A stretch of 64,000 nucleotides of DNA from Tetradesmus obliquus. Lineage: Eukaryota; Chlorophyta; Chlorophyceae; Sphaeropleales; Scenedesmaceae. The number at the start of each line of letters is the position of its first letter. Position 1 is the stretch's first letter. This document shows, one piece after another, positions 1,106 to 53,700 of the stretch. The stretch spans positions 9,074,501-9,138,500 of the forward strand of contig CP126191.1 in the NCBI GenBank assembly GCA_030272155.1, read 5' to 3'. The position numbers and the translations under genes were made by a program. A model generated the notes under the pieces. That model did not search any database and was not told the DNA's origin. It worked only from the letters and a program-made list of their open reading frames with translations.

Positions 1106-3388
1106 ATGCTCGACAGCCCTGAGCAGCAGGCAGCAGGCACCAGCATCGGCTCAAGTCGCCCTTCTGGTTGCAGCAGAAGTGCACATCGGGACTGCCAGGT
1201 GCTTTCTGGTCACCTGATGTAGCGCTGAATGCTTAGACTGGCAGCGCGTGTGTCGGGCTAGCCCTGCAAAGGAAGAGGCCTCTTCAATGCTGCGCTGCTG
1301 CTGTCTTTCACAGCCACAGTAACAGGCGCCTGCGTCGTTGTGCAGCATGCTGTTTCGCATGGTGTTCATATCAAACCTGTCTTCTGCCCTGCAGGTGACG
1401 TCATTCCAGGCGTTGTGCACAGCCCTGCAGCACCCTGCAGTTACAGCAGACCCCCAGACAGTATGCTGCGTCCTGCAGACCTGCCGCAGCTGGCGCGCTG
1501 CAGTACAGCAGGCAGCAGCAGGCACCACAATCATCGACCTCCACAGCCTGCACAGCATCGCCAAGCTCTCGCAGTTTGCAGCCTGGATCCCGCGGCATGC
1601 AGGCATGCTGGCTGAGCTCTTCCTCACAGTGCCGCAGAGCGGCTGCGAGGGCCTCTCTGCAGAGAGCTACGCCACAGCAGCAGAACAGGTCCTGCTGCTG
1701 GCACTGCAGAACACCGCCGCTGCTGCTGGCGCACACGCAGTTTTTCCTGCAAGTCCTGCAAGCCCCCGGCCAGCAGTGCTGCAGCCGCTGCGCCTGCGCG
1801 TCTTCAGCACAGACTTCCTTTCAGGTCCTGGCCTGTTAGCTGCCCTTCCTGCAGCCACACTCACCAGCCTGGGGGTCAAGCACATGCAGGGCTACCCCTC
1901 CGCCAACAGCACAGCCATCTCGCACGCGCTTGCAGGACTCACTGCGCTGCGCCACCTCACCCTGGAGAACTACAACTGCGAGCACGGCAAGCTTGCAGGA
2001 AACTGCCTGCAAGGCGTTGCGAAGCTCGCCTGCCTGACCAGCCTGCGGCTGACGTGGGTGGCTGCGGACGCGGATCTGGCGCTGCTGCCGCAGACGCTGC
2101 AGGAGCTGCGGCTGGCTGCCTGCTGCGGTGCAGCGCCGCTCAAGCTGCAGCACCTCACAGGTGTGTGCGAGCACAGGGCCTGCTGGCTGCTGTTCGAGCT
2201 GGGTTTTTTCCAAGCAACCTGATAATAATCTTGTCATTAGCAGCAACCGCACCACCGCAGCTGAGCGTCACAGCTCATGTTGCTGCGGACGTGAGGTGCT
2301 CGGTGGCCTTGTGTGTGTTGGTTACTGTGTAGCTCTGCACCAGGCACTGCCTGGCAGGGCACAAGCAATGATGATGTCTATTTGTTAGGCATGGTTGTCA
2401 CTACCACACCTTGCTTCGTTCAAAGCAGGCTTGCGGCCAAGGTAACGCATGCTCGTGCGCAAGCAACAGCCACTGGCATGTGCCCTACCCTCGCTTCCAT
2501 ACTTGTGCCTGGCTGCAGTTCCGGCCTCTGCCCTGTGTGGTTAATAGCAGAATGCTTTGTCACCCCGCCTGTACTGCTGTATTGCTGCTGCAGGGGTTGA
2601 AGCGCTGCACTTAGACCTGCAAGGAACGCCTGCCCCAGGCTCCGCACTTCCAGCGCAGCTGCAGCAGCTCACACTGTACACGTGGGGTGACAACGTGGCA
2701 GCAGATACTTTTGGGAACAGCTCATATCTCCGCTATAAACAGCACAACCTGCAGCATCTTCAGCTGGACGCGCTGCAGCAGCTGAGGGCCCTGGTGGTTA
2801 CAAACGGCCTCTGCGAGCCGCAGCAGATGCACCGCGTGGCGTGCCTGCCAAAGCTAGAGGCTGTGGTGCTGCGCTACACAGATGCGAGCTTGGCGCAGCG
2901 GTGAGAGCTGTAATGCTGGCTGGTTGTTGCAGGGGTGAATTAGGCAGACGTACAGAGGTTTTGGTTGATTGGCTGATTCTATAGGCGGAAAGCATGCAGC
3001 CAGGCTGTGGTGCTGCGCTACACAGATGCCAGCTTGGCGCAGCGGTGAGAGCTGTGATGCTGGCTGGTTGTTGCAGGGGTGAAGTCAGGTGGACGTACGG
3101 AGGTTTGGTTGAACAGGCGACAAGCATGCAGCCAGGCTGCATGCAGGCTCTTGTTCCTGGCGGTTGTGCAGCGGCTTGTGCTATCGGTGTCAGCAAGTTG
3201 GACCGACTTGTGTTGACTGTCACTGTGGGCCTGGGGAGAGTCCGGCTGTGCATGATTAGCGATGCCAGTCACAAGCGCCAAAGGCTTCTTGCATGAAGGC
3301 GGGTGCGATTGCCGGCGCTGCTGCTGTCAACATTTCTAGACAGGGCGTGCAGTGCTTGAACTGTACAATGTGCTCACCATACGTGCTA

Positions 3389-3427
<39 letters not shown>

Positions 3428-4294
3428 GTTGTGCACCCCCGCAGGGCGGCACCTGCCTGGCCGCACCTGCAGCAGCTACGGGAGCTCACTATCGAAGGCG
3501 GCAGCTGCACACCCACCTTGGACGAGCTCGACACAAAAGAGTTCATGCAGCAAATCGGAGCAGCAACCACGCTGGTAGCCCTGCACATAGCGTCTTCCAT
3601 GGTAGATGGTGACGTGCACATCTGCAGGTACCTGACAGGTCTGCAGCAGCTGCAGGACCTGAACCTGACAAACGCTGAGGGGCCTAACACCAGAGAGGAT
3701 GCACTGCACCTCACAGCTCTCACAGGTGTGCCTTAAGAACAGTTTATGTTTGAACTTCAGACTGCTGTGTGCTGCAGCTCTGCTTGCCCGCAAGGACGTC
3801 GTAGACTACTTGAACAGCAATGCGTTTGGGAGGTGTCTTGATGTTCTGCGGTAATTTGCAGTCAATTTGCCACCAACATGGTGCTCAACTGTAATTGCGC
3901 CCTGCTGCCTGCCAATTACTGCCATGCTGCGTACACACCCGCAGGGCTTACTGCGCTGGTACTTGATGGGGCGCAGGGCGTTGACGACGTCGCTGCTGTT
4001 GCCATCGCCAGTTGGCTACGGCAGCTGCAGAACCTAGAGCTGCGCTCCTGCGGCCTGACCACTGCAGCAGCACTGCCGGCAATTGGCTCGCTGACGCAGC
4101 TGCAGTACCTGTGCCTTACAGGGTATGGTGCGACAGAGATCGAAGGCGGCGACATTATGCTGCTGACGAGGCTCACCAAGCTTGTGGATTGTGATGCAGT
4201 CGGCATACATGCAGACTTCAGTGACACCTTTGACCATGAAGCGGTGTCGGCCTTCTACCAAGCTCTGGCTGGTCTGGGCAGTGATACGCCTTGA
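1106..4294 (+). CDS. leucine-rich-repeat protein with F-box-like N-terminus (5 exons)
   Basis: Exons 1106-1198, 1395-2160, 2594-2900, 3445-3725 and 3945-4294 splice at GT-AG sites with consistent phase to 1797 bases (598 aa). Residues about 32-70 carry the pattern of a degenerate F-box (ending CRSWRAAV). The rest is a series of irregular leucine-rich repeats such as LTSLRLTW, LQNLELRSCGL and LQYLCLTGYG, typical of chlorophyte RNI/F-box-LRR proteins. Family knowledge suggests a substrate-recognition or protein-binding role; no partner can be named. Intron 3 contains a copy of the end of exon 3. The first exon was chosen because its ATG frame of 31 codons ends at a donor in phase with exon 2; it could be wrong. 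A non-F-box LRR protein is the alternative. Confidence 0.75.
2866..3086 (+). repeat. exon-edge echo, LRR exon 3 donor (2 copies)
   Basis: The last ~35 bases of exon 3 with the donor and ~70 bases of intron (edge at 2900) recur with the edge at 3044, spacing 144. The copied donor GTGAGAGCT is intact. It lies inside intron 3. Confidence 0.9.
3391..3426 (+). repeat. CTG triplet tract near a 3' splice site
   Basis: A pure CTG run in sense orientation lies just upstream of the acceptor at 3444, where a polypyrimidine tract is expected. Confidence 0.85.
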
Positions 4295-7318: not shown

Positions 7319-7449
7319 AGCAGCTGCAGCACACCCTGCCACCTGGGTGCCTTGGCTGCTGCTGCCTCTAGCGCCCGGTGATGGAACACAAACACAGGCG
7401 CTGTCACTCCCAAGGCTGCCAGCGCTGGGTTAACACTGCTGCCTGGCTG

Positions 7450-7481
<32 letters not shown>

Positions 7482-7641
7482 AGCTGGTGGCTGTAGCTTC
7501 TGGTGATGCTGCAGCAGCAGGTGCTTGTGAGCTGGCAGGTCGTCCTGGCTCTGCTGCTGGTGCATCTGGTGCTGCTGCTGCTGCTGCTGCTGCTGCCGGG
7601 GTTACAGTTGCATCTGGTGCAACAAAGGACACCTGGCGAGG

Positions 7642-7677
<36 letters not shown>

Positions 7678-8438
7678 AGGTACAGCTGGCTGTTCTAGAG
7701 GCACTGCTGTTGCTGCTGCAGGTGGTGCTACTGCTGCCGGCGCTGCTGCTGCAGGTGGTGGTGGTGCTACTGCTGCCGGCGCTGCTGCTGCTGCTGCTGC
7801 AAATGGTGGTGGTGCTGCTGTTGCTGCTGCTGCTGCTGCTGAGCTGGCGGATGCCGCTGCTGGAGCTGGGGCCGCAGGTGTGCTGGGCGCATCCTCTGCA
7901 AGAGATGACAGTTGCAGGTAACAATGCGTCAGTCAGAAGTACAGCGTACCAGAGCTGTAGACTGTTGGCTAATGCTGTGTTGGAAGCTGACCTGCATTTG
8001 GGAGGCCGCTGCTTGCATGCATACGCTGTGCATGGATATGTGCGGCAGCCCCACAGGCGCGCCACACCACACAGCATGCAGGCTTCAGTCACTAAAAACA
8101 CAAGCATGCAGAGCCGGTCAGCTGCCTGCTGTAATACTGCCATAATCTGTCACTGAGCAAATGCATTTAAGCTTACTTTTGATGATCTCCAGCTTGCTGC
8201 CTGCCGGCACATTCAGCAGCCTGAAAGGTGTGCGCAGGTCCACAGCCTTCTTACTGAGCTGCAGCTCGCACTGCTCCGGCTGCAGCGCCGGCTTGAACTT
8301 GCTGCTGGCAGCTTGCAGGACATTTGTCAGCGCCTGCATGGCTGTCACTTTGACTACGTGCTTCTGCTCTGTGCGGCGAAACAGACCACATGCAGCAGCA
8401 GTGAGGCGGATTGTGTGTGTATAAGAGCTAGCTGGCAT
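5135..8438 (-). CDS. TUG/ASPSCR1-like UBX-domain protein
   Basis: Exons, in transcript order, are (first part unresolved) 8177-8368, 7343-7895, 6968-7058, 6709-6785, 6389-6464, 5774-5951 and 5135-5370. They encode an N-terminal ubiquitin-like domain (TUG-UBL1, HVVKVTAMQALTNVLQ to VPAGSKLEII), an Ala/Pro-rich linker, the family hallmark PPDEFFELTAEDL, and a UBX domain (RLHLPDGTLLQSDF; YLYTTPPKTLLKD; HIHVGLDEKR). The C-terminus is KVPKWFKK, close to that of animal TUG. In animals the family binds the AAA-ATPase p97/CDC48 and disassembles or tethers it. A role as a CDC48 adaptor in this alga is inference from family. The ATG at 8438 continues in frame into the UBL domain, but the usual first beta-strand is missing, so a short upstream exon is likely. 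The linker length is set by CTG repeats. Confidence 0.93.
7285..7320. repeat. CTG/CAG tract in TUG intron
   Basis: A triplet run (CTG on plus) lies just past the donor of the large linker exon. It reads as poly-Gln if intron-retained. It is CAG in the sense of the gene and lies at an intron start, so it is an exception to the CTG-before-acceptor pattern. Confidence 0.7.
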
Positions 8439-9028: not shown

Positions 9029-12000
9029 ATGGCAGCTGCAGCTGTGATGCCGTCGTCCGCAGCGGGCCTGCTGACCCTGCTGGACGATGAGAACGATGAG
9101 CTGAAGCACTACGCTCTGGTGCACCTGAACAAGGTGGTGCACGAGTTCTGGTTCCAGATTGCCTCTTACATCGGCTCTGTGGAGGCCCTGTACGAGGACG
9201 ATGAGTTCAAGGATAGGGAGCTGGCTGCCTTGATTGCCTCCAAGGTGCGGCAGCAGCTGTACAACAGCAGCAGGACGCTGCATACTGGAGTCTGGCCTGC
9301 AGCAGTTATGCATGCTCATGATCTGCGCTGCACGTGATGTTTGGCAGGTGTTTTACCATCTGGGGGAGCTGGACTCTGCCCTGACATATGCCCTTGGTGC
9401 TGGCACCCACTTTAATGTGGATGAGCAGTCGGAGTATGTGCAGACACTCATCGGTAAGCAGCAGCAGGAGCTTGCAGGAACAGGGATCATCCTGATCAGC
9501 TGGCATCAGCTGCACGTCGATGCAGCTTGACTATCACACTTGCAGGGGCTGTCTCTGCAGCATGGTCGGGGTGTCAGCAGCTGCTGCACTCGCTTGGTGG
9601 GGCATGCTATATGCGCATTTACCAGCAGCTGGTGCGGCCTGGCAGCTGCTGCTAGACATGCTTTGGAGTAGCGGACAGCAGCTTCCGCAGAGCGTTGGCG
9701 TGGTCATCAGCAAATGCCTACAGCGGCAGCCATGGCTGCTGACCACCTTGTGTGAAACATCGTACGGTGTGCTCACTGTCCCTGGCTGGCTGCCCAGCTT
9801 CAGCTGCAGTCTGTTAACATCACTGTGCGCCAGCCTCCAGCGCCCGCGCGTCCATACCAGCACTTGCATGGCTTGCTTTAAAAACAAGACACACACACAC
9901 TCCGTGTGCTTTGCACCTTGTCAACATGCTGGGTGTGTTGTGCCTTGCTGCTGCAGCGCGCTGCCTGGACCAGTACTTTGAGCTGCGGGTGAGGCAGGTG
10001 GAGGGCAAGGAGGCAGTGGACATCGATCCGCGCCTGGTGGCAGTGGTGGAGCGCATGCTGGACAGGTGCGTCATATTGTGTTATTTCATATGTTACTTGA
10101 TGTTATAACCCTAACTTGTTGTCTTTTTGGTGCTTTGGTGAAGTCTCAGCCTCACAGCAGTAGCTGTATCAGCATAGGTTTATGGAGCAAGACTGGCTAG
10201 TAGTGGCAGCTGCTGAAGCTTTGGTAGATGGGCTGCGTGTGTTGGTGGCGTGCACGGCAAGCAGGTCTGCAGCAGCAGCACAAGGGCCTGCTGGGACCAG
10301 GCAGTGATGTGTATGTACGGCGTAGCAGCAGCTGCTGATTCTGCAGCGCATACGTGGAAGTGGCAAAAGCCATGCGTCGTAAGGAGGCTCAAAGCCTGGC
10401 GGTCCTCCTGCTGCCTTGCGTGTATCTATGGCCTCACTGCTGGTGTGGGGTTCTCCCTGCACCTTGAGCGCCGCAGCACCAACAGCATGTTGCAAACGGT
10501 TTTGCAATAATCCTTTTGCAAATGGGCTGGTAGTACAGCAGGGGCCCCCGCGGTGGGCAAGCTCAAATGCTGTCTGTTGAGTGGCTTGCTCCAGGGAAAG
10601 TACCCTCCTGCTGTCACCACTGCCCAGGACATCGTGCACTTGACACGTCGTGCAGCAGCTGCCAGTGAAACATACAAAGTGGAGCATGTCAGGCCCTAGA
10701 AGCTGCATGCTGTTCGCCCAGCCAACCTGGGCTGACATAGCAGGCCACTAGCCTCCTTTTCATCCTCTGTTTTCTCCCCCACTCGCACTTGATGTTGCGC
10801 TACTGCCTGCCTGCCGGCTTGTGCTGCCGCCTGTCCAAAAACATACACTTCTATGCTGGATACAACAACAGATGCTGCGCGCACGGCCAGTTTGAGCAGG
10901 CTGTGGGTGTGGCGCTGGAGGGGCGCCGCCTGGACCGGCTGCAGGCGCTGGTGGCTGCTGCACCTGACCAGCCCGCGCTGCTGGGCTACGCGCTGCGTGT
11001 GTGCCAGCGGCTGGTGGTGAACAAGGACTTCAGGCAGCAGGTGTGTGTGTAGGGCTTGCTGTTTGGCACAGGCAGCTGGTGGCTGTGGCTGTGTTTGCCA
11101 GCGATTGGTGGTCAACAAGAACTTCAGGCAGCAGGTGGCTGTGCATGTGTGTATTTTGTTGTGTCTTTTTGGCAGAAGCAGCAGGTGGCTGTGGCTGCAT
11201 CGCTGTTGTTGCCAGCGGCTGGTGGTCAACAAGGACTTCAGGCAGCAGGTGGGTGTGCATGTGTGTGTTGTGTTGTGTCTTTTTGGCCTAAGCAGCAGGT
11301 GGCCGTGGCTGCATGGCTATTATTGCCAGCGTTTGGTGGTCAAACAGGACTTCAGGCAGCAGGTGGGGCCTGCACACGCAGTTACATATGCTGATTGGCA
11401 CGAGCAACAGGTGCTTGTGGGTGCGCGGCTGTGTTTGCCAATGGCTGGTCAACGACTTCAGGCAGCAGGTGATTGTGTGTGTGTGAGTTCCGTTGCTGGG
11501 GACTGCACGAATTCGTAGCGTTTTGCATGCTCTCGGCGCCTCACCATGCACACTCCTTAAGATCCACTGACACCGTGCGGCGGCCCTGGATGCTCCTGCA
11601 GGTGCTTCGGCTGCTGATCCGGCTGTATGAGGCTGGCAGCAGAGGCTGCATGCACCAGTGCTTGTTGCGTGCTTGCGCCTCGGCTTTGTACCTTGTGTAC
11701 AGCACCCATCCTTGTTGCTGACTCCCTGCTGCGGCGGCCCTGGATGCGCCTGCAGGTGCTGCGGCTGCTGATCCGGCTGTATGAGGAGTGTGAGCAGCCG
11801 GACTACGTCGTCATCTGCCAGTGCTTGATGTTCCTGGATGATGCACCTGAGGTGGCAAAGATCCTCAACAAGCTGCTCAGCAGCGGCAGGGAGGTGAGGC
11901 GGCAGCATAGCAGCAGCAGCAGCAGCAGCGGCAGCATGTGTTTGGGGATGGACGCTGGAATCACAGCCATACCAGCGCTGCTGCTTGCCTTTATAAATTA

Positions 12001-27645: not shown

Positions 27646-27709
<64 letters not shown>

Positions 27710-30559: not shown

Positions 30560-32610
30560 CAGGCGGCCCCTAGCGCACATTTTTGATTCTAAATGGTAAA
30601 TGTCTTCCAATCCAGCCTTTTCATATCATCATACCATGCTGTGACCGTGTGCGCGGAACATCGGGCTATTCAGCTAGGAGGAGGTGCAATTTTAGGGTTT
30701 TAGCCCGGCTACTGCACTGCATCGCCGCAGGTGTCAGGCAGCCCCTAGCGCACATTTTTGATTCTAAATGGCAAATGTCTTCCAATCCAGCCTTTTCATA
30801 TCATCATACCATGCTGTGGCCAAGTGCGTGGAACCATCGGGCTATTCAGCTAGGAGGAGATGCAATTCCAGGGTTTTAGCCTGGCTACTGCACTCCATCG
30901 CGGAATGTGTCATGCGGCCCCTAGTGCACATTTTTGATTTTTAACGGCACATGTCTTGCAATCCAGCCTTTTCATATCATCATACCATGCTGTAGCCAAG
31001 TGCGCGGACCCATCCGGCTTGTGAGCTAGGAGGAGATGCAATTCCAGGGTTTTAGCCTGGCTACTGCACTCCATCGCGGAATGTGTCATGCGGCCCCTAG
31101 CGCTCATTTTTGATTCTTAACGGCACATGTCTTGCAATCCAGCCTTTTCATATCATCATACCATGCTGTGGCCAAGTGCGCGGAACCATCCGGCTTGTGA
31201 GCTAGGAGGAGATGCAATTTTGTGGTTGTAGCCCGGCTGTTGCACTGCATCGCCGCAGGTGACAGGCAGCCCCTAGTGCACATTTTTGATTCTTAATGGC
31301 AAATGTCTTGCAATCCATTCTTTTCATATCATCATACCATGCTGTGGCCCAGTGCGCGGAACCATCAGGCTATTTAGCTAGGAGGAGATGCAATTTTAGG
31401 GTTTTAGCCCGGCTACTGCACTGCATCGCCGCAGGTGTCAGGCAGCCCCTAGCGCACATTTTTGATTCTAAATGGCAAATGTCTTATAATCCAGCCTTTT
31501 CATATCATCATACCATGCTGTGGCCAAGTGCGTGGAACCATCGGAATATTCAGCTAGGAGGAGATGCAATTTTAGTGTTTTAGTCCGGCTACTGCACTGC
31601 ATCACCGCAGGTGTCAGGCGGCCCCTAGTGCACGTTTTTTGATTCTTAATGGCAGATGTCTTGCAATCCAGCCGTTTCATATCATCATGCAATGCTGTGG
31701 ACCAGTCACTGGTCACACACTGAGTGTGTGGAACCATCGGGCTTGTGAGCTAGGAGGAGATGCAAAAAGCTTGCGACTATGGCCCGTGGCTGGGGATAAA
31801 AGGCAACTGGAATTGACGGACTTGCGCGGGTGGTTTTGATCGCCCAAACAACGAAGCAAAGACTGGGTACATTTACTACAATTCCCCATGAGCGGACTAG
31901 CGGCTCGCTGGGCTAGTGCCTGGGGTCGGGTTCAGTCCCGAAAGTGTATTGTATTGTAGTGTATTGTATTGTATTGTACTGTATTGCAGTTTCGGGGATT
32001 TAGCCCGGCTGTTGCACTACATTGCAACAGGTGACATGCGGCCCCTAGTGCACATTTTTGATTCTTAACGGCAAATGTCTTCCAATCCAGCCTTGTCATG
32101 TTATCCTGCCATGTTGTGGCCAAGTGCGCGGAACCATCGGGCTATTCAGCTAGGAGGACATGCAGTTTTGGTGTTTCAGCCCGGCTACTGCACTGCATTG
32201 CAACAGGTGACATGCGGCCCCTAGTGCACGTTTTTTTATTCTTGACGGCAAATTTCTTGCAATCCAGCCTTTTCATATCATCATGCCATGTTGTGGCCAA
32301 GTGCGCGGAACCATTGGGCTATTCAGCTAGGAAGAGATGCAATTTTGTGGTTGTAGCCCGGCTGTTGCACTGCACCGCCACAGGTGTCAGGCGGCCCCTA
32401 GTGCACATTTTTGATTCTTAATGGCAAATGTCTTGCAATCCAGCCTTTTCATATCATCATACCATGTTGTGGCCAAGTGCGAAGAACCATCGGGCTTTTC
32501 AGCTAGGAGGAGATGCAGCTTTGGGGTTTTAGTCCGGCTACTGCACTGCATTGCAACAGGTGACAGGCGGCCCCAAGCGCACATTGGTCAAATTCACTGG
32601 TGTTGGCTCA
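30560..32610. repeat. 176-bp satellite, ten near-complete monomers
   Basis: Monomers are marked by GCACATTTTTGATTC-like sequence at 30575, 30750, 30926, 31102, 31278, 31454, 31630, 32050, 32226 and 32403, with a partial copy at 32577. The period is 175-177. One monomer is interrupted between 31764 and 31988. No conserved open frame runs through the units. The array lies between two convergent genes. Confidence 0.96.
31765..31988 (+). mobile_element. 224-bp SINE-like insertion in a satellite monomer
   Basis: Comparison with neighbouring monomers shows clean insertion boundaries, flanked by TGCA on both sides (31761-31764 and 31985-31988), a possible short target duplication. Near its end lie TAGCGGCTCGCTGGG (31898-31912, A-box-like) and GGTTCAGTCC (31929-31938, B-box-like). 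The latter sits in a TCGGG/CCCGA hairpin like a tRNA T-arm. A TATTG-rich tail follows. The tRNA-like part is at the 3' side, which is unusual for a SINE, so the class is open. Confidence 0.65.
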
Positions 32611-38981: not shown

Positions 38982-39024
<43 letters not shown>

Positions 39025-42000: not shown

Positions 42001-45000
42001 TGTCAACCTTGCGCACGTTGTAGAAGTCGCGGTGCGGCGCAGACTTCTGAGCCAGGAACTCCTTGTCCGCGTTGAGCATCACGTGCAGGTTGAACTTCTG
42101 CTCCAGCAGCATAAGCCTGGCCGGGTGCGGTTTGGTGGGCGGGCAGCAGTTGGAGAGGCGCGCCGGCAGCAGGCACAGCACGGCGAGAAAAGTGGACACG
42201 TTTGGTGAGACACAGAAAGGAAGACCAAGGAAGTACTGTTGGTGCAGCCAGCAGGTAAATTTTGCGATTAGCAGCACGATTGAGAGATCAGACATGGTGG
42301 CAGCCCACATGGCTGAGCTGGGATGAGGCAGTGCTGGCGGCTCTCTAAGCCACCCATCAGCAAGCATGCTGCATGCACCGTCTGTGGGTTGCTCCTGTGC
42401 TGCTGCACCTGCTACAGGCACAGCACTACCATCCACTGGAAGCCCTGGACGACAAACAGCACTGCACATATTACACCCCTGCAAGCTACGCATCACCGCC
42501 ACACACATCAGGCACTGCATATGCTGCACAGCAAGATTTATGCACCCCACCGCCACACACACCACCGCACACCGCCACCCACCGCCAACCACACACACCT
42601 GTGGTGGCAGAAGCTCTTGACGGGCCCCAAGCTCGCGTAGCGCAGCACCCTGTGCATGTCCGTGAAGAAGTCTGCTGCACTGCCCGGCAGCGGAAACAGC
42701 TCAGTGGCCATGCCGCCAGCCTGCATGCTGCCTGCGTCGCTCCACACGCGCACCACGCCATCTACCATTGTGTAGGCGTGGCTGCTGCGCGGCAGCGGCC
42801 GGTAGCAGAAGGGCTGCGGGTCCACCTCGCCCGGCACGGCTGCTTCCGGCTCTTGCTGTTGTCGTTTTTGTTGCGTTGTGATGGAGAGTGTGTGATGCGG
42901 AGGTCGCAGGAGCACCGCATGTGGCAGAGAGGCAGCAGGCAGCAGGCCAGGGTGTGAGTGAGGAGGTGTTTGGCAGGCAGCCTTGAGACACAGCTGCACA
43001 AAAACTGCAAAAGCCCTTGAAAGCCTACGCGCGGTAGCGGGCGGTAGCAGAAGGGCTGCGGGTCCACCTCGCCCGGCACGGCTGCCTCCGGCTCGTGCTG
43101 TTGTTGTAGTTGTTGCGTCGTGATGGAGAGTGTGTGATGTTGCGCATAGGCACAGGTCGCAGGAGCAGCAGCAGCAGATGCAGGAGCAGGATGTGAGGGG
43201 GGAGGTCCACGAGGGACAGCCATGCCACACAACTCGCACACAGAGCCTGTATCCCACGCACACGGCAAACCCAAACTTGGTCAACCCCGGTCGACCATGG
43301 TAAACCATGGTCAAACAACGCTCACCCGCCGCTGCTCTGGGCTGGCAGCGGGCGTGAAGAGCCACTTGCGCCGCAGCTCCAGGCACTCCACCAGCATCGC
43401 GCACACCTCCTCACGCACACTGCCCATCCACACTCAGTCAAACTCGGTCAAACTTGGTCAAACATAGTCAACCGCTCACCCGCCGCTGCTCTTATTTGGC
43501 AGCGGGCGTGAAGAGCCACTTGCGCCGCAGCTCCGGGCACTCCACCAGCATTGTGCACACCTCCTCACGCACGCTGCCCATCCAAGCCCGGTCAAACCTG
43601 GTGAAAGATGGTTACACCTCGTCAAACTCACTCAACCGCTCACCCGCCGCTGCTCTGGGTTGGCTGCGGGCGTGAAGAGCCACTTGCGGCGCAGCTCCAA
43701 GCACTCCACCAGCATCGCGCACACCTCCTCGCTTTCCTCTGTGAGCAGGTTCTCTGGCGTGATCACACGGCAGTAGTCGTCATACAGCGTGGCGGCCTGC
43801 TCAATGGCCTGCAGGCAAGAAAAATATGCAGGGAAGCAAGACAAGGGGCAGCCAACCCTTACATCTGGTCCAAGCGTTACGGTTGATCACGCGGCAGTAG
43901 CCATCATACAGCGTGGCAGCCTGCTCAACGGCCTGCAGGCACGAGAAATATGCAGGGAAGCAAAACAAGGGGCAGCTACTACTGATCATGCGGCAGTCGT
44001 TGTCATACAGCGTGGCGGCCTGCTCAATGGCCTGCGCTTCACCCACTGGCATGTGCCGTATGTGCGTAGGCTATGCAACACAACTTGATCCTCAGCTGCG
44101 CTGCACCTAACGGCGAGCTTGCACAGCTGAGCTGCTCACCTTTCCTGTGTCTGCCAGCTTATCCGCAGAGTTCGGCATCTGCACCTTGTGCTGCGGCAGC
44201 GGCGACGGCGGCACCATGCCATTCTGCAGCACAAGCTGCGCATGCGCAGCAGCAGCAGCAGCAGCAGAGGGGCTGCGCAGCAAGCTAGGGTCAACGGGGG
44301 TGGCTGCTGCTGGCATGGGTGCTGGGGTCGGCAGCTGCTGGTAGGCGTTGCTGCTGCTGCTGCCGGCTAAGAGGCGCTCCGCTGAGGGGGTGGGCAGCAG
44401 CCTAGGGTTAACAGGCGGTAGCACTGGCAGCGGCTGCTGCAGCTGCAAGACCAGGGCAGGAGCAAGGCAGAGTGCAGTGCAGAGGATTGGTTGAGTGCCC
44501 AGTACACCACCATGCGAATGGCGGTTCTGAGACCCCTGCATAAAGCTGCGGGCAGGAGTGTGTGTGTGAGTGCTTTCGCGCAGCTCCAAGCATGATTTGC
44601 TGCCTGAGGATACACGCATACACAGGCAACCCCTGCTTTGGCTGCAGTTGCCTTCAGCATGTAGTCAAATGCATGTCAGTGAAAGGCAACCACTGCTTCA
44701 TGCGCCAGATTACGCCACAAAGCCTCAACACAAAGCCGCATCTGCCTATCCAAAAAACGCCAACTCACCTTGGACTGCTCTGTTCCACCCTGCTGCGCCA
44801 CACCTGCTGGCGCCTGCAGGCCAGCCACTTGACTTTCCTGCCGTGCAAAGCTGCGCTGCGCTGCGCTGCTGCTGCTGCCGCCGCCGGTGCCGTTTGCGCC
44901 TGCCGCTGCTGCTGTGTTGCTGAAGGTGCGCCAGTGCTCTGGCAGGGTGCTGCTGCTGGGGCCGTCCACGTATGACTCGTCGTGGTCTACATCCTCCTGC

Positions 45001-46231
45001 GTTAAATCAACATAACATTATATAACATAACATGTGACAAGTGGCACACCACGGGCGTGTTAGTGGCACACTGCATGCGCAGCAGCGCCGGCTGGTGGAC
45101 ACAAGCGCCATGTCCAGCAAGAAACCACTACGCTCTACGCTAGGAAGAACTACAATAACGCCTGCCTATTTGCTGGCCCTGCGTTGCGCACTTCCGCGGC
45201 GCATAAGCTGCTGCTGGCGTTTTGGCCTGTGCCATCGTCACTGCGCACGCCAAAAATAACTTTTACAGCAGCCGCACTATTGCTGAGCTGGCAGCAGCAG
45301 TGCCTCACCCGAGCCAGCCACTCCACCCGCGGTGAGTGCACCCCAGCATCTGCTGCTGCATCCTGCAGGACAGCCGGCAACAAAGTATAACAGTGAACAC
45401 ACACAGTTGCAAGCAGTGACTGTTACGTTGAAGCAGCACCTCTGCCTGCAACACGCTCACAACGGCAGGTGTTTGATTCACGACGGTTCTCAAGCCCAGC
45501 TCTGTTATGCCACAGCAGCTTCTGCGCGACGTATGTCAAAATCTCAGCAGCTGCCAGACCGATCGCTGTCCAAGCACTCTGAGGTTTGCTTTCACTGCTG
45601 CTGCTGATGCTACTGCTGCTGCTGCTGCTGCTGGCATTCCATGTGAGATGAGCATGATGATGATGCTGATCAAACAGCATCATGTCAGGTCTAGCAATGA
45701 AGCACAACACAAAGAGGAAGCAAAGCGAGCAGCAGCGCACCTGCTGCCGCCTCACGTCTTGCTGGTGCTGCACTGTCTGCACCCTCACAGGCCTGCCTCG
45801 CCTGCCAGGGCTGTGAGGCCTGCAGCAGCACATACCAACAGAAGTGATGATTGATGCATAGAAACGCATCTACAAGCCGTTACAGCACATGGCAAGCTGC
45901 TTGCTGCTTCATATTTTGTTGGGGTGTGCTTTCAAGCACCCAAGTGCCACTTGCGCAGCCGCAGCATGATGCGATGCAGCCAAAACAGCAGTAAAAAGCA
46001 AACATACAGCAGTGATAGGATCGTGATTTCACACCTGCCTCTCTGCTGCTTTGCAGCAGCTTGTAATTGCTGCTGTTGCAGCTGCTGTAGCTGCTGCTGC
46101 TGCAAGGCCAGCTCCTGCTGCCTCAGGTAGTAGGACGTGGCTGCATACGCGGCACCTGCTGCAGCAGCTGATCCCAGAGCGATCCCGCCAGCGAAGATAA
46201 CCCAGCTGCTGCGGCTGCTGTCGCTAGCCAT
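33250..46231 (-). CDS. AMPD: AMP deaminase with N-terminal membrane anchor, 18 exons
   Basis: Exons in transcript order: 46035-46231, 45741-45819, 45309-45362, 44769-44996, 44140-44442, 43644-43808, 42599-42855, 41904-42116, 40922-41102, 40006-40122, 38844-38975, 38311-38394, 37920-37994, 36856-36971, 36118-36261, 35299-35455, 33558-33730 and 33250-33340. Total 2766 bases, 921 aa. It hydrolyses AMP to IMP plus ammonia in purine salvage and energy balance. Zinc-site and catalytic blocks are present: [66 protein letters not shown] and the signature [11 protein letters not shown]. Residues about 7-30 form a hydrophobic segment ([20 protein letters not shown]) followed by a Gln-rich coiled stretch, as in plant AMP deaminases that are membrane-anchored. 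Residues 110-290 are low-complexity. Most introns contain copies of exon edges. Catalytic residues look intact. Confidence 0.97.
33348..33383 (-). repeat. CTG tract (sense) ahead of AMPD exon 18
   Basis: (CAG)12 on plus, which is CTG in the gene sense, lies directly upstream of the acceptor at 33341. Confidence 0.9.
33690..34670 (-). repeat. exon-edge echo, AMPD exon 17 acceptor (7 copies)
   Basis: GGTCGACGACAGCTTCCACAC|CTGCACAC (plus) occurs at the used edge 33730 and at 33867, 34004, 34141, 34280, 34428 and 34660. The first four spacings are 137, 137, 137 and 139. Copies include CACCTCGCACAGGTCGG and are ~90% alike. Confidence 0.96.
34750..35345 (-). repeat. exon-edge echo, AMPD exon 16 donor (5 copies, exact 136 period)
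   Basis: CTGTGCCGCCACGCTGTACT (plus) begins at the used edge 35299 and at 35163, 35027, 34891 and 34755, every spacing exactly 136. The intron part of each unit holds CCCTAAACCC- and CCCTAAACCCTAC-like telomeric heptamers. Confidence 0.97.
35410..35580 (-). repeat. exon-edge echo, AMPD exon 16 acceptor (2 copies)
   Basis: GTTGTTGGACAGCGGGCTGC (plus) at edge 35455 recurs at edge 35570, spacing 115. Confidence 0.95.
35469..35500. repeat. poly-G tract
   Basis: About 30 G with one T interruption in the AMPD intron, between the two copies of the exon 16 acceptor. Assembly length here is unreliable. Confidence 0.85.
35795..36150 (-). repeat. exon-edge echo, AMPD exon 15 donor (4 copies)
   Basis: CTCATGCACAGCCCTATCTG (plus) at the used edge 36118 recurs at 35996, 35899 and about 35797, spacing 122, 97 and 102. 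The intron part includes CAACAGAAGATAC. Confidence 0.94.
36205..36490 (-). repeat. exon-edge echo, AMPD exon 15 acceptor (3 copies)
   Basis: ACACCAGGTGGTCGATGTC to GTGCGGC (plus), edge 36261, recurs at edge 36372 (spacing 111) and weakly at 36476. Confidence 0.92.
36940..37530 (-). repeat. exon-edge echo, AMPD exon 14 acceptor (5 copies)
   Basis: TGTGCTTGCTGGACCAGTC|CTGCGGGGACA (plus) at the used edge 36971 recurs at 37109, 37247, 37385 and about 37515, spacing 138, 138, 138 and ~130. The units are almost identical over their whole length, suggesting recent expansion. Confidence 0.96.
37985..38035 (-). repeat. CTG-type tract (sense) ahead of AMPD exon 13
   Basis: CAGCAGCAGCAGCGGCAGCAG (plus) lies directly upstream, in gene sense, of the acceptor at 37995. 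Confidence 0.8.
38355..38585 (-). repeat. exon-edge echo, AMPD exon 12 acceptor (3 copies)
   Basis: AAACAGCGGCAGGAAGATGT to AGCAT|CTGCGG (plus), edge 38394, recurs at edges 38485 and 38566, spacing 91 and 81. Confidence 0.94.
38979..39030 (-). repeat. CTG tract (sense) ahead of AMPD exon 11
   Basis: A run of about 15 CAG on plus abuts the acceptor at 38976. Confidence 0.9.
39130..40045 (-). repeat. exon-edge echo, AMPD exon 10 donor (10 copies)
   Basis: CAC|CTGCTTGCGGCCGTAG and GATGCGCATCTCC (plus) occur at the used edge 40006 and at 39895, 39791, 39700, 39613, 39515, 39427, 39346, 39259 and about 39158. Spacing is 81-111. Two alternating subtypes (CTTGCGGCCGTAG and CTTGCAGCCATAG) show higher-order duplication of unit pairs. 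Confidence 0.95.
39218..39239. repeat. poly-C tract inside echo array
   Basis: About 20 C. Counterparts in later units of the same array, near 39398 and 39582, are about 9 C, so the length varies between copies. Confidence 0.85.
40055..40445 (-). repeat. exon-edge echo, AMPD exon 10 acceptor (3 copies)
   Basis: GGTGAAAACCTCGCGCGTCA to ATCAGGTTGTC|CTGC (plus), edge 40122, recurs at edges 40310 and 40438, spacing 188 and 128. Confidence 0.94.
40755..40955 (-). repeat. exon-edge echo, AMPD exon 9 donor (2-3 copies)
   Basis: CACCTGCTTGATGAAGATCT (plus) at the used edge 40922 recurs at 40820, spacing 102, and partially at 40776. Confidence 0.92.
41055..41415 (-). repeat. exon-edge echo, AMPD exon 9 acceptor (3 copies)
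   Basis: GTCATGCGCAGGCTCTCAAA to CTTGCCGTCC (plus), edge 41102, recurs at edges 41260 and 41405, spacing 158 and 145. The intervening poly-G (41268-41291) follows the second edge. Confidence 0.94.
41715..41950 (-). repeat. exon-edge echo, AMPD exon 8 donor (2 copies)
   Basis: CTGAAGATGACCAGCTCGTC (plus) at the used edge 41904 recurs at 41724, spacing 180; the copied donor reads CGT|CTG on plus, so the GT is altered. Confidence 0.93.
42785..43150 (-). repeat. exon-edge echo, AMPD exon 7 acceptor (2 copies)
   Basis: About 80 coding bases and 50 intron bases (GGTAGCAGAAGGGCTGCGGG to GATGGAGAGTGTGTGATG, plus), edge 42855, recur at edge about 43096, spacing 241. Confidence 0.94.
43315..43735 (-). 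repeat. exon-edge echo, AMPD exon 6 donor (3 copies)
   Basis: CTCAC|CCGCCGCTGCTC and ~100 coding bases (plus) begin at the used edge 43644 and at 43480 and 43326, spacing 164 and 154. The intron part contains GGTCAAAC repeats. Confidence 0.95.
43745..44040 (-). repeat. exon-edge echo, AMPD exon 6 acceptor (3 copies)
   Basis: CATACAGCGTGGCGGCCTGC to CAATGGC|CTGC (plus), edge 43808, recurs at edges 43932 and 44031, spacing 124 and 99. Confidence 0.95.
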
Positions 46232-47012
46232 GTGCTGCAGCTGTGAAGCAAGAAGGCCAAGCAAGGCCTGTGCGGCCTAGGCAGGCTCGACTGCTCTGAA
46301 ATGGAGCTTGAATATTGGCTATCAATGGTTTGCACACAATAGTAGAGGCAGAACCAGCACTCTCGGTCAGGAATATGCAGTGCGCCCGTTTTGTGTGAGC
46401 AGCACAAGAGTGAGCAACGACGCCTTCGTGAAAACCAATGTGATCGAACGTACCGCACTCAGTCAGATTCGTTCAACAGTATGGTCGGGCTATGACTTGA
46501 GGAGGCGTTGTTGTGCCGTGCAAAAACCCTACCTTCCCCACAACCCATGTTGGTCGGATCGTTGCCACGTGGATCTCACAAAAGTGGCATGACTTGTTTT
46601 TCAACAGCTGACGGAATGCTTGCGGCACGTGCGCCTGTGTAGAGGTATGGGCCCTAGGCAAACAGTCACATCAATCACACCAGCCTGAGGCATGCGCATG
46701 TGCACCGTGTCTCATGACCTTCTTACAGCTTGGCCCTGTACTCACAATGTTGAGTACCATCAGGATGACTTTGAGAATGCTTATTTAAATATCGAACTAG
46801 GGTAAGGAAGGCATGTGCGACACCACATCACAGTGAATCCACATAGGCAGCATGACAGCATCATGATGTACTGCCCAACCACACCATAACAGTGCATGCC
46901 GTGGACAAAGTCAGCCACCTGCACCACATAACACAGCAGCGCTGCCCTGGGTCGCAAGTTGGTGCGCCACAATGCCCCCTTTCGGTCATCCCTGGCAAAC
47001 TTGCCACATGCC

Positions 47013-47050
<38 letters not shown>

Positions 47051-49041
47051 CACAGCGCCAGATGCCACCATGGCGCTGGCCAGCGCTGGGCGGCTGCTGC
47101 GCTTAACCTAAATCCAGCAAGCAAACACACCTGGCAAAGATCCACATCCTGATCCACTCTGCAGGTGAGCCAGCGGTATGCACAGCAACAGCAGCAGCTG
47201 CAACACGCTGCATTCCTGTCACAAGCAGGGCCATCAGACCAGACCACTGCAAAGTATCAGACTATCTTACACGGTTCCACTATTTGCAAATAGTCAATGG
47301 ACGTCCTCAACTTGGATGCTGGATATCTGATAAGGGAGGTGCAAGGCAACGAGCTCAGAGTTGGAATGCAGAAGCCTGTCGTGCACACCGCGCCTGCCAT
47401 TGCGGAAACAGCCCAAACAAACGACAGCTGCCGCTATCTTCTGTGCGCAACGTTTCAACCAATCAGTCCTGAAATGACACACAGCACGTGGCAGCTGCAG
47501 GGCAATAAATCAACTGATGCTGGAACCATTCAAGGATGCGGATGGTTCAAGAATGCGAGCTGCAGGAGCACAACAGACTGCAAATCTATCGATTGTATTC
47601 GACCAAGAGGCGACGGAAGCAAATTGTGGGCTGCAGGAGACTGTGCACACACACACAGTGAGAATGACCACACACTGACACACAATCATGCTTTGAGCAG
47701 CACTGCAGCTGAGCCCAAGTGGCAAGCCAAAGCGCAGGAAGCCTGATTGAACAGGCAGCTTCCCCTCTTCGCTGATTGCATCTTAGCAGAGCTGACTCTG
47801 CAGAATGCCTGTCAAGCACATCAAGAGCCACAACCCGCTCCTACGCCTGCGCAGGAAGCTGCTGATACAACTGCGCCGTCAAACGCTGTGTTGGTTTCCT
47901 GCAAGAATTGGCATCAACAAGCAACCTTTCTTCGACCAGTGACCATCTAGACAATCAGAGGTGTTTTCAACAACACAGACACACATGCAGTGGCACAAGC
48001 CACAGGATGGGCGGCCCTGGCCCAAACGCTAGACCTCCAGCAAGTTGACACAATCAAAGAGTCGAGGGACAGCAACGCTCACACACAAAGCAGCATCGCA
48101 CACGAACACCCGCCAGCTGGTGTCAATGCACCACAGGTTGCGGGTGCAGACATTGGTTTTGGACTGGTGCAGACGCCTGACTGGAGACGACAGGGTTCGT
48201 TGTTGCAGCAATCCTGCTGCAGACGCAAGGGTCGACACTTCTGAGCTGAACAACAGAAGAATATGCTGGACTACAGAAGACTCAGCTGCAGAATGGAGAC
48301 ATATACACCCATACCTGTCCCCTGTTCACTGAGAAGAATGTTTGGGCGATGCCCAGGATTGAGCTTTGCCACAGACAGCAGCCTTTGACCATCAAAGCTC
48401 TTGCGCCATCTGTGCACATGCACACATTGCGGCAGGGCCTTCCGCCATGCCTGACGCTGGCTGGGGCGTGTCATGCACACCCGCCCACTTCGTCCGACTA
48501 CTTTCATGTTCTTTATATGCTACAAACTCTGCAAACTCCATGTCAAAACCCTCTGAGCAGGCAACAAATAGCCTGCATCTCAATTGACCAAATGGACCAG
48601 CCCAACTGCTGCGCCTGCAGTGCTCTAGTCTAGTCCCCATTCCTGCCACGTCTGTAGCACACATACCAGCACACATGCGGCTGCAGCACACACGCCAACA
48701 TGCAACTTTGAGTTATGCAGTGTGGGATCGCTCCTGCTGCACACTGTACAATGCGACATGTCAACTGCAACACAGTCATTCCCCTCAGGAACACAAGCAG
48801 TCATAGTGCTGCAGCACATACGCACACTCAGCAGACACGTGTCACTTTTGACCTTTCTCCAACACGGCATGGACAGCGCACCCACCACACTCCCAGACAC
48901 ATTCAACAGCCGCTCAGGTCATGTCCCCTCAGCTGCACAGTTGTGTTTGTCGGTTGCGTGTGAGCCTTACGGTCATGCAGCCGACACACATACACAGCCA
49001 GTCGACGCAGACAGTCAAGCTAGCCCCTCCTGAACTCCAAA
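46232..49041. other. 2.8 kb without recognised gene, between AMPD start and ORP stop
   Basis: The stretch holds the AMPD promoter and the ORP 3' UTR. A 149-codon open frame at 47297-47746 (+) has no family features and no splice signals. A CAG tract lies at 47012-47048. TTACA motifs at 46726 and 47265 are possible minus-strand poly(A) signals, far from the ORP stop. Confidence 0.4.
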
Positions 49042-50660
49042 TCAGCTGCTCTGCGCACAGTCGAGGTGCGCAAAGGCTGGCCGCACCTTGGCATCCCGCC
49101 GCTGCTGCTGCTCCATCTGCTCCTTCAGCTGCTGCGCAGCTTTCACGTCACCTGCACGCAGCGCTACCAAGTCCAACCTGTGCTGGCTGTCTGACGGCAG
49201 CACCAACTGCTGCTGCTGCTGCTGCGCCAGGGGTAGCCAGCACTCTCGAGCGTCTTCAGACAGCGTCCACAACCGCTGCCCGTCGAAGTCCAAGTGAGAC
49301 AGCCAGCAGCCGGTGCCCACTGACAGCAGCTGCACCCGCTGCTGCTGCTGCTGCTGCTGCTGGCAGTGTGCCCTGTGTGGTTGGTATTGCTGTTGTGTCT
49401 CATGCTGCATGCTGCTGCTGCTGCTGCTGCTGCTGCCAGCTGCAGCAGATTCACAGCAGCTGATGCCAGCCTGCTGCATGCCTCCTGCAGCCTGCCCAGC
49501 AGGAGCAGCAGCAGGAGCAGGTTCTGCCTGAACCCAGCTGCTGCTGCTGCCGCTACCATTGCTGCTGGCCACGTTGCTGTTGCTTCTACAAGCTCCGCTG
49601 CTGCTGTTGCTTGTAGAGTGGCCAGCAGTGCTGCTGACACTGTCATCAAGCTGAGGTGCCGTTGCTGCTGCTGGTGCTTGTGCAAGGGTGCCGCAGCCAG
49701 CGTGCACAGCTTTCCTATTTGCCGCACATGCATCAGCACAGCTGTCAGCACCACCAAACCTAAAGCAGGCGCCAGCACCAACAGCAATCTTGAAATGCCG
49801 CTTGTGACCACCCTTGCTGCCGCAGCTGCTACCCACACCGCTGCTGCTGCTGGTGATTGTGAGGCTCTTGCTTGTCTTGCTGCTGCTTCTTATGCTGCTG
49901 CCAATGCTGTGGAGCTGCTTCAGTGGCTGCAAGCTGCTGCGCACACTCAGCAGGGACCGCAAAGGGCTCTTGCTGCTGCTGCTGCCGCCGCCAACTCCTT
50001 TGTTGCTGCTACTGTTGAATTGCGGCGTGCTAGAAGCCCTGCCTCCAAGCTGCGGCGCAACTGCAGCAGCTCCACTGCTGCTGCAGCTGCTGGTGCTGCT
50101 GCTGCTGCCTGCCGCGGCGTCCTGGCCCTGCAACATCTTACTGCTGTCACCCAACTGGCATGACAGCGACACTTCTGCCATCACAGCACCCGACTCAGCT
50201 GCCGCTGCTGCTGCACTGGCTGCTGTATCACTGCCCCTAGCTGCAGCAGGTGCTTGCAGTGACTTACCAGCAGCAGCACAACCTCTGCTGCCACCGCTGC
50301 CGCCGCTGCCACCACCACCGCCGCTGCTGTTGCTGCGTTGCATTCCAGCTTCCCTCTCACCCTCGGCCGCTGCCATGCCAGCTGCGCAATCTGCTGCCGC
50401 AAGCGCCGCCCTGCGTGCAGCTGCCTGCACCCAGCCTGGCACCTCGATCACAGCCGCTGCAGCAGCAGCAGGCCCCTGAATGCACACTGAAAAGCTGTCG
50501 GCCCGCGCCAGCAGCCTGCTTGTGGCGCCTGGCACAGGCCCAAAGATGACTGTGGCAGTGAGGTTGTGCCTGCTGTCTGTAAGTGTGGCTTTGCCTTTGA
50601 TGAGTCCGTGGGGCTGGCCAGACAGCAGGCCGCAGATGCGGTAATAAGGGTAGGATATCT

Positions 50661-50707
<47 letters not shown>

Positions 50708-53700
50708 CAGCAGCGTCAAGTAGCAGTGTCAGGTGGCAGGTTTGGGTGCACAGATTGCAGCATTCGCTGGTTGTGCAATTCATGACATGCATCATATGCG
50801 CCTTGTACATTTTGAAAGATAATGCTCATACCATGTTGAGAAATGGTTCTCGTACCATCTAAGACAGTGCCAGGACCCGCACGTGACTACTACTGGATAA
50901 GGTACATAAGGCCACGTCAGGGCAGCTGCAGCAGTGCAGTGAGGCATCGAAACCCATCTCCTCACCCACCTCCATCACTGCACAAGGCAGCCACAGCAGT
51001 GCAGCACCACATCACACCCCTCTGCTCCAGTGGGCCGCGGGGCCGATGACGTTATTGCTATGGCTGGATAGGTAACTTGACAATGATGACACCCATAACC
51101 TCACCCACCTCAATCACTGCACAGCGCAGAGACAGCAGTGCAGCACCGTATCACACCCATCTCCTCACCCACCCCAATCACTGCACAGGGCAGCCGCAGC
51201 AGTGCAGCACTGCATCACACCCTTCTGCTTTAGCGGGGCGCGGCGCCGATGGCCTTATAACTGTGGCTGGATTTTTAACTTGCTAATGATGACACCCATC
51301 TCCCCACCCACCTCAATTACTGCGCCATCGCTTGCGAAAGTGATGCGCCGGTAGCCGCGCGCGTTGGTCTTCAGGCCGCCTGCGCTGAAGCTCACCTCAG
51401 GCTGAGACAGCCCCTGGAAGCTGAACAGGCCTGAGGGGCCCTGCAGGTGGAAGGCAGTCACTGGAGGGTGGTGGCTGACCTGCTCCACGAATATGCTGCT
51501 GCCGGACGCCGTGCAGGCCTGCGCGAAGGGCAGCAATGCATTGCAGATCAACAGCGTCGTCAAAAATTGACCAGGCTGCAGTCTGTGGCGGGTCTGCACA
51601 ACCAGGGCCTGCCTTGCAGCATGGCATACGCGTGCTGCAATGTGCAAGCTGCTCCACCACGCTTGGCTAGTCAGCAACAGCCACAACATAATAATGCAGC
51701 CACATGCGCCAGCCTAGCCAAGCCCAGGTAGGCTCAGACCCGACACTGCCGCACCTGCCACGTCTCCCCGAAGATGCTGCACCAGCCTTGTCCAACAAAC
51801 AACACCCAGCAGAAATACAGCGCAGCCACGTCCGTGCTCATGTGCTAAATCTGTGACATACAGAAAATCCCACCTGCCACGTCTCGCCCAGCAGCGGGCC
51901 AAAGGGCTTGATTACACATGCAATTTGGTGCTGGGGCAGGGGGGGGGGGCACGCAAGAAAGTGTAGGACATCATCATGAAAAACCTTGACGGGCCCAAGA
52001 CACCCCCCCACCCCCCCACCCCACTGCAGAAATGTGCGCTGTCAGGCCCCAGAAGTACATATATATTATGTTATAGCTGTTAAATCATTTCTGGACCCTA
52101 AAAGCCGTGCTTTGGCGTGGTTGCAACATCACACGAACGATCTGAAGTTTCTGCTGTACTGCCACTGCCGTCACCCCCGGCGCGTCTCGGCGTCTGTCTG
52201 CCACCTTGTTATCCTCTAGTGTTTATGGCCGGGATACTAAAACGTGTGCAAACAACAGTACATGACCTAAGCTTTCATATGAGCCCACTCTCGCCTTCAT
52301 CGGGCTACTGGCAAAAAAAGTTCGGACCCCCAAGACAAGAAAGTTAGTGGGCCCCCAGACACCCCCCCCCCCCTCCCCAAAACCACCTCAGAACCCGTGT
52401 GAAAATTTGCAGTAGTTAATTTATATAGTATACTATAGTATTAGATGTTCTAAAGTTGCCAGCCAAAAAGGGATGATGATGCTGTCAGTGGAGAAAGTGC
52501 CACCCCTTGGCTGGGGGTTGAAAAACTGACGCCGCCAGTTTTGATCAGGCCACAGCTGCGTGCATAACCCCACCTGCCATGTCTCGCCCAGCAGCGGGTT
52601 GAAGGGCTTGCGCCAGCTGGCAAAAACAACCAGCGTTTGACACCAGACAGCAGGCGCGCGGCAATGCTATACAGCTAAGCCGCCGGCCAAGCCAGGATCA
52701 TATGAAGGGCGCTTCAACCAGCCTTTGACAACAGGCAACAGGCAACAGACAACAATACAGCGCAGCCGCCAGCCGCCAAACTAGGCTGATACATAGATCA
52801 TCCAGGAGGTCTGTGCCAGCGCACCGCCGCACCTGCCACGTCTCGCCCAGCAGCGGGTTGAAGGGCTTGCGCCAGCTGGCAAACACAACCAGCCGTTGAC
52901 ACCAGACAGCAGCCCCGCAGCATTTTTATGCAGCTGGCGAAGCCCCCGGCCACGCCAGGACCATGTGAAGGGCTCTCCAACCAGCCTTTGACAACAAGCA
53001 ACAGGCAACAGACAACAATACAGCGCAGCGCAGCCGCCAGCAGCAAAGCTAGGCTGATACATAGATCATCCAGAAGGTCTATGTCAGCGCACCGCCGCAC
53101 CTGCCATGTCTCGCCCAGCAGCGGGTTGAAGGGCTTGCGCCAGCTGGCAAACACGTGCTGCAGCCCCGCCACAAACCACGCCACGCACAGCTGCAGCCGC
53201 GCCAGCGGGCTCGCTGCTGCTGCTGCCGCCTCCAGGTGTCGCGGGTGCACCCATGGGTCGGCCAGCTTCTGTAGGTAGCTGCGCGGCTCAAACATAACCA
53301 CCTGGCAGCAGCGGCAGCAGCAGAGGCACAGCAGGAACATTGACAGATGCTGGAGCAGTAGGGGCTTGCTTGGTGTTGCTGTACAGGTCACTTGAGGGGC
53401 GAGCAAATTGTTTGAAACACAATCAGTAGTGCTTGAAGCCTTGTGTGGCCTGCCCTGCAGGAGGCTGAGGCGCAGCTGCAATAAGTCCTAACGCAGGCGC
53501 TGAGCTGCATTGCTGCGCGGTATGCTGCAGCATGCGACAAGCTGCGCCTGCATGTGGTTTAAGGCCCCGCAGGCCGCAGCGCTGCTTGCAGGAGTGCTGG
53601 TGGTGCTTCATCTCTCACCGGCAGCGTGATGTTGATCAGGTTGAGGTTGCCAGACAGCAGCTTGCGGCCCAGCTGCTTGCCGATATCAATGATGATCCTG

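Follow-up and report, generated by a model that had tools for sequence, protein, structure and literature searches.

Tandem copies of exon edges and intron length in three genes of the green alga Tetradesmus obliquus

The window analysed here is a stretch of 64,000 nucleotides from the green alga Tetradesmus obliquus (contig C1, positions 9074501-9138500, of a 104.66-Mb genome in 17 contigs), and our subject is the tandem copies of exon edges, here called echoes, that lie in many of its introns. Gene models were obtained with an ab initio gene finder and with a spliced aligner restricted to GT..AG introns. The exons of three genes with 35 introns were verified by spliced alignment of related proteins. 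These are RPN2, mapped with P0121 (T. obliquus OEZ85, 98% identical); AMP deaminase, mapped with P0001 (99%) and P0002 (97%), both transcript-derived by name, and with a PDB match to 2a3l; and the gene of P0241 (OEZ86_012094), a Tetradesmus gene. For the other genes in the window, exons are ab initio only. Neither a tRNA gene nor an Rfam match reaching the gathering threshold was detected in the window. For comparison, 20 arbitrary 10-kb loci at round coordinates were drawn from the 17 contigs. Before boundaries were counted, 66 predicted exons were discarded as echoes; the matching proteins, which are annotated or transcript-derived by name, do not contain the segments that ab initio prediction had called exons. 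After echo removal, 62 of the 76 true boundaries in the verified genes were recovered and 62 of 92 predicted boundaries were correct, and counts from the comparison loci are approximate because of this limited accuracy.

Comparison of the window with itself (blastn, lag between copies 25-1000) revealed 42 merged local arrays covering 24.4% of its bases, against none in a dinucleotide shuffle of the window. Tandem Repeats Finder (TRF) returned 99 rows, among them arrays with periods of 97-268. A ladder was defined as one or more copies of a 30-nt exon edge within the same intron, with an identity of at least 70%. By this definition ladders are present in 20 of the 35 introns of the verified genes, nine of which carry them at both ends, and at 29 of the 68 splice-site edges tested (13/34 donor and 16/34 acceptor, on both strands; Table 1). 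The 71 ladder copies are spaced 61-306 nt apart (median 127), and the splice dinucleotide is retained in 61 of them. For the first copy of a ladder, exon-derived sequence amounts to 18-87 nt, with a median of 37, and intron-derived sequence to 50-248 nt, with a median of 97; the exon share of the unit clusters at low values (median 0.29, Kolmogorov-Smirnov (KS) p ~1e-5). The first-pass annotation had described introns with tandem copies of exon boundaries, at donor and acceptor edges and on both strands, often with the splice dinucleotide kept, and on all these points the observation is confirmed.

Ladders are the main source of intron length in the verified genes, which agrees with the earlier proposal that such copies dominate it. 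Counted from the edge out to the final copy, ladder spans take up 9,685 of the 19,150 intron bases (51%), and 9,159 of the intron bases lie inside aligned repeats. The median length is 672 nt for introns with a ladder and 231 nt for those without; when ladder spans are subtracted, the ladder introns have a median of 218 nt, close to the ladder-free value (p = 0.27). Among introns longer than 500 nt, 15 of 17 carry a ladder. The exceptions are two ladder-free RPN2 introns of 503 and 806 nt, within 9454-10871.

The copies look like tandem duplications decaying without constraint. In gapped repeat pairs the mismatch between a real exon and its echo is 0.077, while that between intronic copies is 0.124 for exon-derived and 0.149 for intron-derived bases. 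The mismatch is thus about twofold higher between echoes than between exon and echo, as would be expected if in the latter case one partner is under selection and only the other drifts. By codon position the mismatch is 0.078/0.057/0.122 between real exon and echo, a pattern to be expected if echoes drift freely and exons change only at silent sites; between echoes it is 0.092/0.081/0.126, leaving a mild third-position excess. Judged by codon-position mismatch, the copies show no coding constraint, and there were no signs of translation.

Could the echoes nevertheless be functional, as alternative mini-exons or as decoy or stepwise splice sites under selection? Such a role might account for the frequent retention of the splice dinucleotide, for ungapped profiles in which exon edge and splice motif are kept and the spacer is lost, and for the many echoes that ab initio prediction labels as exons (the 66 that were removed). 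However, GT/AG is preserved in the copies no better than the neighbouring exon bases, and in the 34 wholly intronic pairs exon-derived and intron-derived bases have similar mismatch (0.145 versus 0.169). The conservation of the splice motif in ungapped profiles arises largely from the way the copies were picked, by their exon part, and from an alignment that allowed no gaps, through which indels take effect; in gapped pairs the difference in mismatch is nearly erased, and selection keeping the echoes as splice sites was rejected as an explanation. Mismatches also extend beyond third codon positions, first-copy offsets modulo 3 are spread as 13/7/9, and the annotated or (by name) transcript-derived proteins are free of echoes. 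We therefore regard function as very unlikely.

Spacers are homologous (z>3) in 45 of 71 neighbouring units, with z<=2 in 22, and it follows that the whole unit was duplicated; insertion of short exon-edge blocks in place of whole units was rejected because of the same 45 homologous spacers. Assemblies are known to be error-prone at tandem repeats, which might suggest that the copies are an artefact. A false duplication would, however, yield identical copies, and those seen here mostly differ by a few to 30%, have indels of their own and fall into several ages per ladder, so that an assembly error is barely credible.

We next consider where the arrays lie relative to exons. All 29 merged arrays in the verified genes touch an exon by at least 12 nt. 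Under a generous, transitive marking of exon-derived bases, 107 of 109 repeat pairs in these genes hold such bases; of the two that do not, one spans 829 bases and the other lies beside a C-run. A finer count of single primary pairs places 27 of 36 at edges, compared with 15.1 expected by random shift. In the comparison loci, where exon predictions are approximate and may include echoes, 44 arrays of lag 60-350 touch a predicted exon, two are intron-only, one is in a flank and three are intergenic (in 40.7 kb). The intergenic shortage is not significant against an expectation of ~5-10 (5 by script scaling, ~10 after hand correction for intron number). Pairs in the loci fall at edges in 31 of 44 cases (19.1 by random shift). 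TRF arrays of whole units divide in the window into 10 at edges, 6 in genes but at no long-exon edge and 2 outside genes, with the six falling inside arrays among the 29, and in the loci into 6, 6 and 3, respectively. Pairs with a lag below 40 were excluded from echo removal and from the random-shift, loci and final edge and pair counts, and TRF units below 60 from the division of TRF arrays. The edge excess is well supported for merged arrays in the three genes, and support is moderate for the finer counts and for the rest of the genome.

An excess of this kind might be expected if duplications fell uniformly across genes and those internal to exons were purged, in which case the edge preference would reflect geometry (short introns and units of ~125 nt) together with easier detection where a conserved exon takes part. 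Simulations were run with the observed unit sizes, substitutions and indels, and with detection similar to that of the real analysis. Under uniform duplication the edge share of merged arrays was 0.69, 0.75 and 0.66 in a first set, 0.64 (99 edge, 55 intron-only) in a later one, and 0.62-0.69 when introns were grown to window-like lengths. With homology-driven expansion and contraction and purging of exon changes it was 0.68-0.80 (uniform 0.64), and 0.67-0.80 at window-like settings (uniform 0.62-0.69); exchange without purging gave 0.60 at one setting. Small runs ranged from an edge share of 0.64 to 11/11. For single pairs the simulated shares were 0.48-0.59 under uniform duplication and 0.58-0.74 with exchange.

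With merged-array shares of 0.62-0.75, uniform duplication generates most of the pattern and requires no special mechanism for that part. The excess of single pairs over its 0.48-0.59 is modest, pairs in the loci with identity of 90 or more lie at edges in only 9 of 15 cases (6.7 by random shift), and the scarcity of intergenic arrays is of the size that chance allows. What speaks against it is that 29 of 29 merged arrays at edges has P ~2e-6 at a share of 0.64 and ~3e-5 at 0.70, an excess that persists in density-matched simulations, and that exon-touching arrays outnumber intron-only ones 44 to 2 in the loci, with exons taken ab initio. On balance we consider uniform duplication an unlikely account of the whole, though one to be taken seriously.

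The merged-array edge share exceeds both simulated models, which is what a mutational process targeting exon edges would produce, for instance if breaks or template switches accompanied transcription or splicing. The fairly narrow unit size (by its median spacing) and the small, clustered exon share of the unit point the same way. The small exon share may instead reflect viability, since a unit must carry a branch point and a pyrimidine tract, or the ungapped measure of the exon part. Targeted mutation seems to us improbable.

Arrays of this kind are not confined to the window, and the earlier view of them as a property of one region did not hold. Local arrays occur in 16 of the 20 comparison loci, covering 0-31% of bases with a mean of 9.6%, so that they are found in many parts of the genome sample, other chromosomes included, and the window exceeds the sample average in density. 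For example, one intron of a beta-ketoacyl synthase gene (L005) combines a ladder at the donor with an echo at the acceptor, and acceptor ladders were seen in genes for an ABC transporter (L012) and a prolyl oligopeptidase (L014). Arrays are unevenly distributed, both along the chromosome and among paralogs: the array-free stretches 44036-50917 and 53155-61883 adjoin the densest ladders of the window.

Ladder density is strongly gene-dependent. A protein search for the P0241 gene, in which 7,992 candidates were scored, gave six proteins, all from Tetradesmus obliquus. At least five loci make up the family of this gene, the others being C3:6903942-6910786, C3:6895155-6898460, C1:1352815-1357425 (paralog GC) and C3:2888633-2892535. 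In these four paralogs, which were partly covered and of which GB was poorly modelled, 23 introns show a single weak donor echo, with a lag of 115. The intron that follows a shared 139-nt exon, as matched by eye, has a donor ladder and a length of 490 nt in the window gene, against 269 nt and no array in a paralog; since the intron is present there without an array, it need not be new. Paralogs have introns both with and without ladders, at positions matched by eye. The 16-bp minisatellite of paralog GC repeats a GTGAGG-like donor many times and amounts to a short-unit version of an exon-edge echo.

The best explanation in our view, to which we would give an even chance, is that these are exon-anchored tandem-duplication ladders with a ratchet favouring edges. 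A segment of ~60-300 bp, comprising an exon edge, its splice site and adjoining intron, would be duplicated in tandem; as long as the outermost splice site and the exon are intact, the extra copy is spliced out, and mRNA and protein are unchanged. Further duplications would add rungs, and the copies would then decay without constraint, as the decay pattern shows. Repeat homology at the exon itself decays at about half speed, because the real exon is under purifying selection. Unequal exchange that expands an array may leave the exon intact, and contraction would put a mutated echo in the exon's place and be purged. Ladders at edges would then be retained and extended, whereas arrays confined to introns or to intergenic DNA would appear and vanish, with directional lengthening of introns as the net outcome. 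The ratchet is put forward as a hypothesis, which our own simulations reproduce in part. A wider idea, which we hold to be possible but doubtful, is that exons act as a self-feeding source of intron DNA. With selection guarding the outermost copy alone, any expansion would be free and most contractions would damage the message, so that introns would lengthen rung by rung, outward from the exon; in this lineage such a one-way ratchet would make conserved exons, and not transposons, the chief origin of intron length.

Several observations sit uneasily with exon-anchored ladders driven by a ratchet. Its expansion and contraction steps are ones that we infer. The simulated ratchet falls below the observed share, 29/29 having P = 0.0015 even at 0.80, and in one small run purging had no effect (edge 6/8 with it, 7/9 without). 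Nine of the 36 single primary pairs lie wholly in introns and are read as inner rungs through the transitive marking. The model predicts that the youngest rung adjoins the exon, but in only 14 of 20 ladders is the similarity of the first spacer pair higher than that of the last (5 opposite, 1 tie; p = 0.058); decay with distance, which the first-pass annotation had claimed, therefore stands as a trend but falls short of significance. Gap openings number 0.7-0.9 per 100 columns in exon-derived and 2.1-2.4 in intron-derived sequence, and the same contrast is seen in wholly intronic pairs (0.7 versus 2.1); we tentatively put this down to composition. Arrays also arise on short units: an intron of paralog GA contains a 25-bp minisatellite, and in paralog GC a 16-bp repeat starts at the donor (intron 3057-3543).

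To place the ladders among known systems, we first compared them with intron gain by tandem duplication. In 2009 Gao and Lynch reportedly described internal gene duplications with intron creation, and short internal duplications are said to be common in genes. In intron gain of the Rogers/Hellsten type, a copy joins the donor and acceptor edges of one intron and the offset equals the intron length. No such donor-to-acceptor copy is present among the listed pairs at lags up to 1000, a range that covers 32 of the 35 introns; within that range intron gain is rejected as the explanation, and the link to it that had been drawn before is not upheld. A few cases of such gain are listed in the accessible part of PMC4974935, namely ATP2A1, fission yeast and the potato RNA-dependent RNA polymerase, and one fission-yeast intron there spans four copies of a 24-bp exonic segment. 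In both systems a segment that includes splice signals is duplicated in tandem, and the mRNA stays the same because the extra copy is spliced out (PMC4974935). They differ in that a new intron is made there from a duplicated exon, whereas in T. obliquus single edges are copied repeatedly into an intron. In Chlamydomonas and Volvox, tandem repeats are richer near intron-exon junctions in a survey whose units are 1-50 bp only, according to the accessible part of PMC3887541. The likeness lies in the abundance of tandem repeats in green-algal introns, which increases towards the intron ends; the accessible part of that survey describes repeat motifs of up to 50 bp, not copies of exon edges (PMC3887541).

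The arrays are minisatellites in the sense of head-to-tail units above 10 bp, as the TRF periods and the homologous spacers show, and they share tandem units and imperfect copies with intronic minisatellites and variable-number tandem repeats. What sets them apart is that, in the verified genes, each array has at one end a piece of coding exon held by selection. Introner elements, which are dispersed families, also contribute intron sequence in algae and bring splice sites with them. Two of the 29 ladders were searched for dispersed copies (units 34753-35025 and 13221-13460, with very common words skipped), and both matched their own array only; a mobile or introner element was rejected on this ground, introners being dispersed and the two tested units confined to their own locus. 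A literature search of limited reach found no account of exon-edge ladders, which is weak evidence of novelty.

Differences in intron length are usually attributed to transposons and drift. In the verified genes, ladders that started from exon edges account for about half of the intron sequence. If expansion is allowed and contraction purged, this would constitute a general selective reason for intron growth. Echoes preserve coding sequence as well as splice sites, and gene finders are misled by them, the one used here included; annotations of such genomes may therefore contain phantom exons. Two 17-scaffold T. obliquus genomes are in print, GCA_030272155.1 (104.7 Mb) and GCA_030272055.1, according to the accessible part of PMC12571836, and the word "intron" is absent from the main text of that paper. 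With two published genomes, rates of rung gain and loss are directly measurable.

Table 1. Ladders and arrays at exon edges in the window (positions in the window; number of copies in brackets, units and lags in nt)
Gene	Intron	Ladders and copies	Extent	Strand
RPN2	11041-11755	donor ladder (4, offsets 94-428) and acceptor copy (lag 154)	10990-11786	+
RPN2	12735-13612	donor ladder (2) and acceptor ladder (4, unit ~116)	12701-13635	+
RPN2	13821-15103	donor copy (1) and acceptor ladder (4)	13751-15202	+
RPN2	15293-15796	donor copies, lags 128 and 243	15238-15541	+
RPN2	16334-16914	acceptor ladder (2)	16680-16949	+
RPN2	17058-17598	donor ladder (2) and acceptor ladder (2)	17035-17637	+
RPN2	17790-18471	donor ladder (2), exon part <=59 nt	17731-18028	+
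Predicted gene, ab initio exons 22237-22444 and 23167-23301		two arrays at predicted exon edges	22364-23189	-
P0241 gene	26602-26966	acceptor copies	26688-26993	+
P0241 gene	27380-27711	acceptor ladder	27454-27735	+
P0241 gene	27851-28340	donor ladder	27793-28296	+
P0241 gene	28748-29208	acceptor ladder	28893-29236	+
AMP deaminase	33731-35298	acceptor ladder (6, unit 137) and donor ladder (4, unit 136)	33657-35375	-
AMP deaminase	35456-36117	acceptor copy and donor ladder (3)	35422-36166	-
AMP deaminase	36262-36855	acceptor copy, exon part 47 nt	36215-36534	-
AMP deaminase	36972-37919	acceptor ladder (4, unit 138)	36951-37524	-
AMP deaminase	38395-38843	acceptor ladder (2)	38358-38574	-
AMP deaminase	38976-40005	donor ladder (9)	39072-40041	-
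AMP deaminase	40123-40921	acceptor ladder (2) and donor copy	40063-40950	-
AMP deaminase	41103-41903	acceptor ladder (2) and donor copy	41052-41945	-
AMP deaminase	42856-43643	acceptor copy and donor ladder (2)	42787-43730	-
Oxysterol-binding-protein-like gene, exons ab initio only		arrays at predicted exon edges	50918-53154	-

CTG/CAG triplet runs are plentiful in the window (e.g. 7436-7841, 18376-18473 and 27602-27709) and biased gene prediction and the acceptor model. Between the P0241 gene and AMP deaminase lies an intergenic tandem satellite of 176 bp (30555-32585; 6.5 + 3.4 copies), in which no exon echo was seen as far as exons are predicted. The array at 29903-30140 (lags 103 and 134) begins ~45 nt before the mapped coding end of the P0241 gene (29947) and continues downstream, and is an echo of the end of a coding region rather than of an intron edge.

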